From Deltaproteobacteria bacterium (lineage in GTDB: Bacteria > UBA10199 > 2-02-FULL-44-16), in assembly GCA_016202335.1 (NCBI GenBank), contig JACQOX010000184.1, forward strand, positions 1-32,639: 32,639 nucleotides of DNA, in the 5' to 3' direction. How positions within the stretch are numbered: the stretch's first letter is position 1; each line of letters opens with the position of its first letter. Shown one piece after another: positions 6,719 to 29,828 of the stretch. Both the position numbers and the translations under genes were made by a program. The notes under the pieces are model-generated. The model did no database searches. It worked only from the letters and a program-made list of their open reading frames with translations, and was not told the origin of the DNA.

Positions 6719-6806
6719 GTCGTTGCGAGCCCGAAGGGCGTGGCAATCCAGTCTTGTCATCATGCCTGGATTGCTTCGTCGGACCTACGGTCCTCCTCGC
6801 AATGAC
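6719..6806. repeat. intergenic inverted repeat element (GTCGTTGCGAG...GGCAATCCAG / CTGGATTGC...CTCGCAATGAC)
   Basis: Terminal arms GTCGTTGCGAG and CTCGCAATGAC are inverted copies, and GGCAATCCAG pairs with CTGGATTGC; related half-copy at 27085. Confidence 0.75.
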
Positions 6807-27079: not shown

Positions 27080-27084
27080 TTGTT

Positions 27085-27119
27085 GTCATCGCGAGCCCCG
27101 CAGGGGCGTGGCGATCTCC
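27085..27119. repeat. half-copy of the 6719-6806 intergenic repeat family
   Basis: GTCATCGCGAGCCCCGCAGGGGCGTGGCGATCTCC vs GTCGTTGCGAGCCCGAAGGGCGTGGCAATCCAG. Confidence 0.65.
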
Positions 27120-29205: not shown

Positions 29206-29284
29206 AGGAGCGAATCGCTAGCATGGAGTGCTTAGGGCGACAACTTTTTTCATTTTACCGCTCATCCTGAGTTTTCGACGATCC

Positions 29285-29313
29285 GCTCATCCTGAGCCCG
29301 TCGAAGGATGAGC
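29285..29313. repeat. left quasi-palindrome GCTCATCCTGAGCCCGTCGAAGGATGAGC
   Basis: Near-identical inverted copy of the right element. Confidence 0.88.
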
Positions 29314-29320
29314 GAAAACT

Positions 29321-29626
29321 ATGGCTTTCTGGGTATACATTCTAAAGTGCAATGACGATTCCTACTATACCGGCCATACTGATGATCTTGAAAAAAGAAT
29401 GTTTGAACATCATTCAGGAGCCATTGAAGGTTATACAAAAAATCGTCGCCCATTAAGGTTGATTTTTTGTGAGCAATTCTCTTCTCGAGAAGATGCGTTT
29501 CAACGAGAACGACAAATCAAAGGATGGAGCAGACTAAAAAAAGAAGCGTTAATAAAAGAAGATTGGGAATTGCTGTCTTTTTTGTCCCGAAAGAAATCGG
29601 CTCATCCTTCGACGAGCTCAGGATGA
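29321..29626 (+). CDS. GIY-YIG nuclease family protein
   Basis: WVYILKCNDDSYYTGHTDDLEKRMFEHHSGAIEGYTKNRRPLRLIFCEQFSSREDAFQRERQIKGWSRLKKEALI. Confidence 0.93.
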   Translation: MAFWVYILKCNDDSYYTGHTDDLEKRMFEHHSGAIEGYTKNRRPLRLIFCEQFSSREDAFQRERQIKGWSRLKKEALIKEDWELLSFLSRKKSAHPSTSSG

Positions 29627-29628
29627 GC
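29600..29628. repeat. right quasi-palindrome GCTCATCCTTCGACGAGCTCAGGATGAGC; degenerate halves follow at 29641-29655 and 29669-29682
   Basis: Read directly; encodes the HPSTSSG-stop end of the GIY-YIG ORF. Confidence 0.88.
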
Positions 29629-29828
29629 GGATGTCACGGGGTTCAGGATGAGCGGTTTGTTTGATAGATTCAGGATGAGTGGAACTATTGAAGAAAGGGA
29701 AGAATTTTTTAGGCCTTTTGAAAAATCGATGGTTATTTTTCCATCGTCAAAATCTTTATCAAAATCAGGTGGTTGGCGCTTTTTCGATTTCATAGGAAAG
29801 ACCATAGTCAAAAAAGAGAAAAATACAC

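Follow-up and report, generated by a model that had tools for sequence, protein, structure and literature searches.

The locus examined here raises the question of whether a small GIY-YIG nuclease could be the only enzyme of a REP-like mobile system. In the window, i.e. the whole stretch of 32,639 nucleotides that was analysed, a GIY-YIG gene is enclosed by two inverted palindromes, and our analysis suggests that this arrangement is one copy of a small unit of such a system, a reading that we consider probable. The genome comparisons reveal the pairing of gene and palindrome, their fixed orientation and ends, the dispersal of the palindrome, inversion of the unit in place, its presence or absence in relatives and a dependence of the repeat on the nuclease subfamily.

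The candidate for a mobile unit, in which the GIY-YIG gene is preceded by one palindrome and followed by its inverted copy, covers positions 29281-29632 of the plus strand, 352 bp in total. The original prediction had placed the palindromes at 29285-29313 and 29600-29628; these coordinates were borne out, and the window repeat analysis extends the arms to 33 nt each (29281-29313 and 29600-29632) with 97% complementarity. It had overlooked that the repeat includes an asymmetric foot on its outer side, which reads GARCGG, or CCGYTC on the opposite strand. With this foot, the left palindrome runs over 29283-29313 on the minus strand (foot CCGCTC, core TTCGACGGGCTCA on that strand) and the right one over 29600-29630 on the plus strand (foot GAGCGG); the latter does encode, as had been claimed, the HPSTSSG tail and the TGA stop of the nuclease. 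The half copies reported outside both palindromes are also real. They are direct repeats at 29258-29271 (minus strand, foot plus one stem arm), 29643-29655 and 29670-29682 (both plus strand, the last with one mismatch). The pattern GCTCATCCT-N11-AGGATGAGC has two matches in the window with 0 mismatches, while two matches were found in 0 of 100 shuffles and 0.04 are expected. We also observed that the start codon listed for a 588-aa PP2C-like ORF (window 29648) falls within a half copy, and that the second half copy reads RMSG in frame with this ORF, whose real start may lie further downstream.

The ORF at 29321-29626 (plus strand, 101 aa) is a GIY-YIG gene as predicted, based on Pfam, alignment and AlphaFold2. 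Its product scores 65.6 bits against the GIY-YIG domain PF01541 (cut-off 22.6) and has the catalytic Tyr, Arg and Glu of the superfamily: Y6, Y16 and E63 are invariant in an alignment of 44 sequences, and R26 and H30 are conserved in over 90% of them. The AlphaFold2 model (pLDDT 87) is a GIY-YIG fold apart from the tail, residues 93-101, which is predicted to be disordered. The nearest solved fold and sequence are those of the UPF0213 protein BH0048 (1zg2) and the YazA-type small GIY-YIG proteins, and the next nearest fold is that of the structure-specific Slx1. No dedicated NCBIfam model exists for this protein, which we refer to as the S1 type. A role as a defence system was rejected, as there is no PADLOC match, and so was spread by plasmids or phages: only six plasmid records match, at less than 60% identity, and the phage matches are distant.

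The association of gene and palindrome above chance, on which the original prediction had staked itself, is found across bacteria. We searched with an alignment of four members covering residues 1-92 of the window protein, leaving out the repeat-encoded tail, and collected the 80 loci best by similarity, picked by protein alone. They span Pseudomonadota, Chloroflexota, Thermodesulfobacteriota, Binatota, Campylobacterota, Cloacimonadota, Ignavibacteriota, Myxococcota and Babeliales, with Sphingomonadales over-represented, and their tree is poorly resolved. Of the 80 loci, 66 have the palindrome core, allowing at most 2 substitutions, no further than 300 bp from the gene, and there are 150 core matches in 47.1 kb near the gene versus 35 in 634.7 kb of far flank, a 58-fold enrichment. 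When flanking inverted repeats were sought without any preset sequence, 62 of the 75 loci with enough flank for bracket tests had one, versus 1.7% of 1281 control windows. In 40 of these 75 loci the gene has a correctly oriented copy no more than 150 bp away on each side, versus 4 of 12,642 random placements. The nearest left copy is on the minus strand in 45 of 55 cases and the nearest right copy on the plus strand in 55 of 60, and the left copy keeps a fixed position ~40 bp upstream of the gene. Chance bracketing is rejected by the far windows, the shuffles and the random placements.

An association with small GIY-YIG genes in general was rejected: the other small GIY-YIG subfamilies in relatives lack palindrome pairs, unlike the window type. 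In two relatives of other families, G004 and G010, palindromes again bracket the S1 gene, here accompanied by arrays of half copies. Next to the GIY-YIG gene in two relatives (L068:1181-1478 and 1795-1940; L047:1275-1379), parts of the palindrome are repeated in tandem (83 bp x 3.6, 21 bp x 7 and 30 bp x 3.5).

The palindrome is a dispersed repeat with defined ends. The consensus of the 150 near-gene copies is 5'-R-SSS-TTCGACARGCTCA-SSS-Y-GARCGG-3', in which TTCGACARGCTCA is an invariant core; conservation stops sharply at either edge, and the far copies have the same appearance. When each locus contributes a single copy, Watson-Crick pairing is found at stem pairs 1, 2 and 3 in 100, 95 and 97% of the copies, versus shuffled means of 88, 50 and 34%. 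The stem thus covaries, its sequence changing while the pairing is kept. In copies of the usual orientation the foot faces outward from the unit. No clear strand difference emerged from nearest-neighbour folding when a strand preference through the tandem G.A mismatches was looked for.

The window's own genome, which is incomplete, contains 8 exact copies of the core CCTTCGACNNGCTCAGG (0 for the reversed control); the core is present in 21 of 41 genomes, i.e. this one and those of same-phylum relatives, with up to 54 copies. In 24 of 26 gene-carrying genomes, the sequence CTTCGACNNGCTCAG is repeated about 9-149 times, compared with 0-1 for the control. Rhizorhabdus histidinilytica and Legionella maioricensis have no dispersed copies and none at the gene either. 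With a 27-nt unit, the repeat is a REP in the wide sense, i.e. a dispersed imperfect palindrome of 20-40 nt with an asymmetric unpaired tag and many copies. At four loci (flanks of L100, L114, L124 and L138) a core copy lies inside the loop of a second, outer one (TCCTTCGA-...-CTCAGGACGAACG), and these nested palindromes look as if one had inserted into another. A different hairpin repeat (TGTCATTCTGAGGAGC...CTCAGGATGACA) was seen in an intergenic region of a Chloroflexota locus (L116:2630-2800) with no GIY-YIG gene.

The unit behaves as a discrete mobile element in the Erythrobacter/Qipengyuania group. Among loci with unrelated flanks, DNA homology extends between about -55 and about +65 relative to the gene and ends at the outer palindrome ends. 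About 60 genomes of the group have the sequences that flank the Qipengyuania qiaonensis unit, only that of Q. qiaonensis has the unit there, and about a dozen of 61 genomes have the ~396-bp unit elsewhere. We examined 14 unit copies; 12 have the exact core at both ends in inverted orientation and two at one end. Five units are present in uncultured Erythrobacter sp. 998 (G047). At two sites (L149/L126 and L117/L134) the unit is inverted between collinear flanks of related species, and near aroQ the unit is found in G047, a solo palindrome in G121 and neither in eight other species. The polymorphism of presence and absence named beforehand as a refutation test has thus been seen for both unit and palindromes. 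We rejected the L116/L118 pair as a further inversion, as it represents a different position within one neighbourhood. No target duplication was seen at the insertion junctions, which are too diverged for an exact footprint; an exact excision footprint was sought at the L246 site and the L116/L118 pair, where too much divergence or the arrival of other repeats obscures it. Eight relatives of the window have aminotransferase orthologues without an adjoining unit, but the neighbour gene is not conserved, so this locus yields no readable empty site.

An alternative hypothesis could be that the nuclease is a host-beneficial cutter of hairpins or cruciforms serving genome maintenance, with the palindromes as its substrates rather than as transposition ends. 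The fold, nearest to UPF0213 proteins and then to Slx1, is consistent with this, as is one lineage of 15 loci in which the gene is kept vertically between nrdR and trmJ and the palindromes are partly lost. However, strict vertical inheritance, which this explanation expects, is not seen: the S1 gene is patchily distributed (4 of 47 genomes of the window's phylum at high score) and occupies many sites, with several copies per genome and palindrome-defined ends. We therefore regard such a host function as quite improbable for the type as a whole, and the nrdR-trmJ lineage is probably a settled copy of the mobile unit. In S. parapaucimobilis the gene between nrdR and trmJ overlaps trmJ. In many Sphingomonadales (L351:1501-1821 and the 15 trmJ-group loci) it adjoins trmJ with the palindromes partly lost, possibly as a domesticated copy. 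In Sphingomonas paeninsulae, a GIY-YIG copy that may have decayed lies between rnc and era (L352:1501-1776).

Short inverted pairs of the palindrome look like deletion derivatives of the unit and a counterpart of REPINs. We compared 400 kb each of G047 and G117, which are 93% identical across 362 kb aligned. In G047 the palindrome forms six inverted pairs of 92-93 bp whose feet point outward, and 0 of the 6 are at the orthologous place in G117. The inner ends of these pairs resemble those of full units of the L126/L137 type, and it is this likeness that suggests an origin by deletion. Like REPINs, they are inverted pairs at a fixed short distance that appear to be mobile as one, the mobility being read from the polymorphism. 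At the orthologous place of one G047 pair, G117 holds a unit of a second GIY-YIG subfamily, GVT, and it has CGTC-type palindromes at the place of another pair and at one further single-copy site.

The same data bear on the idea that the palindromes are transcriptional or RNA elements of the nuclease gene (terminators, attenuators or operators) and that the dispersed copies are ordinary intergenic hairpins. The fixed spot of the left copy upstream of the gene would suit such a role, hairpins adjacent to genes are commonly terminators, and I-TevI binds its own operator. But this idea leaves unaccounted for the tens of identical repeats that lie at unrelated genes, the stop of homology at the foot, the inversion of whole units and the 93-bp pairs missing from close relatives. 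The data on presence, absence and inversion speak against a regulatory reading as the whole explanation, and we consider it very improbable.

The GVT subfamily provides a second pairing of a GIY-YIG gene with a repeat. It has the signature LYTGVTN...GFT.RY...NP.W.DLY and was first found in relatives with inverted GTCATTGCGAG repeats, in 6 of 6 cases. Among 120 evenly drawn Pseudomonadota genomes, 23 carry it, with 41 genes in total. Inverted repeats with a score of at least 12 bracket 31 of these 41 genes, versus 1.5% of 884 control windows; they vary by clade, most with an outer CGTCAT foot. The S1 core is found at 65 of 80 S1 loci and 0 of 41 GVT loci, and CGTC-type repeats at 3 of 80 S1 loci (background 49 of 1476 far windows) and 33 of 41 GVT loci. 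Judged from these sequences, the repeat type depends on the nuclease subfamily and the specificity is nearly complete.

CGTC-tagged REPs were not associated with any transposase in the 2013 survey by Di Nocera and colleagues (PMC3733652). The dRS3, RPE-4/-6 and CGTC-4 repeats of Neisseria, Rickettsia and Wolbachia carry the CGTC tag. CGTC-tagged REPs are an alike kind of repeat, and their tag flanks GVT, the sister of the window subfamily, in the 33 loci counted above, so that the GVT repeats fall in the CGTC superfamily while the window palindrome has a different tag and does not. The window has a CGTC/TGTC-tagged palindrome, TGTCATCGCGAGCCCCGCAGGGGCGTGGCGATCTCC, at 27084-27119 in the interval that separates the deoxyhypusine synthase gene from the next ORF, and a possible further CGTC-type repeat arm, CTCGCAATGAC, at 6796. 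No GVT-type gene was found in the window's own incomplete genome.

It could also be that the palindromes are spread by other machinery, e.g. a RAYT or an IS transposase, and that the GIY-YIG gene, enclosed among them by chance, travels along as a settled or selfish passenger. RAYT/REP units look very similar, and palindromes persist in some genomes without the S1 subfamily (17 of 37 such genomes in the window's phylum carry them). However, no Y1_Tnp was found in 13 of 22 palindrome-bearing genomes, and nine of these 13 (G047, G050, G051, G053, G057, G060, G062, G063 and G064) hold 39-96 copies. The 30 Y1_Tnp loci (92 kb) are without the window-type palindrome, so a RAYT as the hidden mover was rejected; nor is there among them a REPtron, i.e. 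a Y1 HUH transposase gene flanked by this repeat. The ~396-bp unit has room for no gene other than the GIY-YIG ORF, hence for none of the known transposase types that mark an insertion sequence, and two GIY-YIG subfamilies each have their own repeat. A passenger role appears unlikely to us.

The parallel with REP/RAYT systems (REPtrons and REPINs with RAYT, or TnpA-REP) drawn by the original prediction holds as an analogy. In both, the repeat is a short, dispersed hairpin that carries an unpaired tag on one side, the enzyme gene lies between inverted copies, solo copies occur as well as fixed-length inverted pairs, enzyme genes are few and repeats many, and the repeat type follows the enzyme clade. 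They differ in the tag, which is GTAG in REP/RAYT and GARCGG/CCGYTC here, and in the enzyme, an HUH Y1 transposase there and here a GIY-YIG nuclease, of which strand rejoining is not expected. Free-standing GIY-YIG homing endonucleases share the nuclease domain family, and spread by break repair is conceivable for both, but our unit has palindromic ends and dispersed non-coding derivatives, and the genes at the loci examined are intergenic, with no intron, intein or phage context seen. MITEs are likewise short non-autonomous derivatives with the ends of a coding unit, but the parent here encodes a GIY-YIG nuclease and no target duplication was found.

We infer that the S1 nuclease itself cuts or mobilises the palindrome. 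Most likely it would recognise the hairpin with its foot, extruded or single-stranded, and cut beside the foot. Slx1 is a cutter of branched DNA, and the relation of the window protein to it would agree with a hairpin or cruciform extruded from the DNA as the substrate. DNA hydrolysis is the activity of GIY-YIG enzymes, which are not known to rejoin strands; a host partner, by ligation or break repair, would therefore be required, and the route must differ from strand transfer of the RAYT/IS200 type. The segment so released or broken may afterwards be copied or moved by host repair and ligation, as a solo palindrome, an inverted pair of ~93 bp or a unit of ~350-400 bp.

We lean towards the view that GIY-YIG nucleases are dedicated mobilisers of two large palindrome groups, the CGTC REPs and the CCGYTC/GARCGG repeats, forming minimal hydrolytic-nuclease systems parallel to REP/RAYT. 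The open-access literature that we searched, with subscription papers and preprints outside its scope, has no report of the window palindrome or of GIY-YIG genes joined to REPs, and an earlier report of the link elsewhere is possible. Described here are the CCGYTC/GARCGG-tagged repeat group with a GIY-YIG partner and a candidate enzyme for the CGTC REPs, for which none had been named. Both kinds of palindrome are widespread in bacterial genomes, beside or within genes, and the GIY-YIG gene makes the open question of how the CGTC REPs spread a testable one. If a nuclease of ~90 residues is the engine, this transposon-like system would have among the smallest possible coding parts, and it would be powered by an enzyme class not previously known to drive bacterial transposition.
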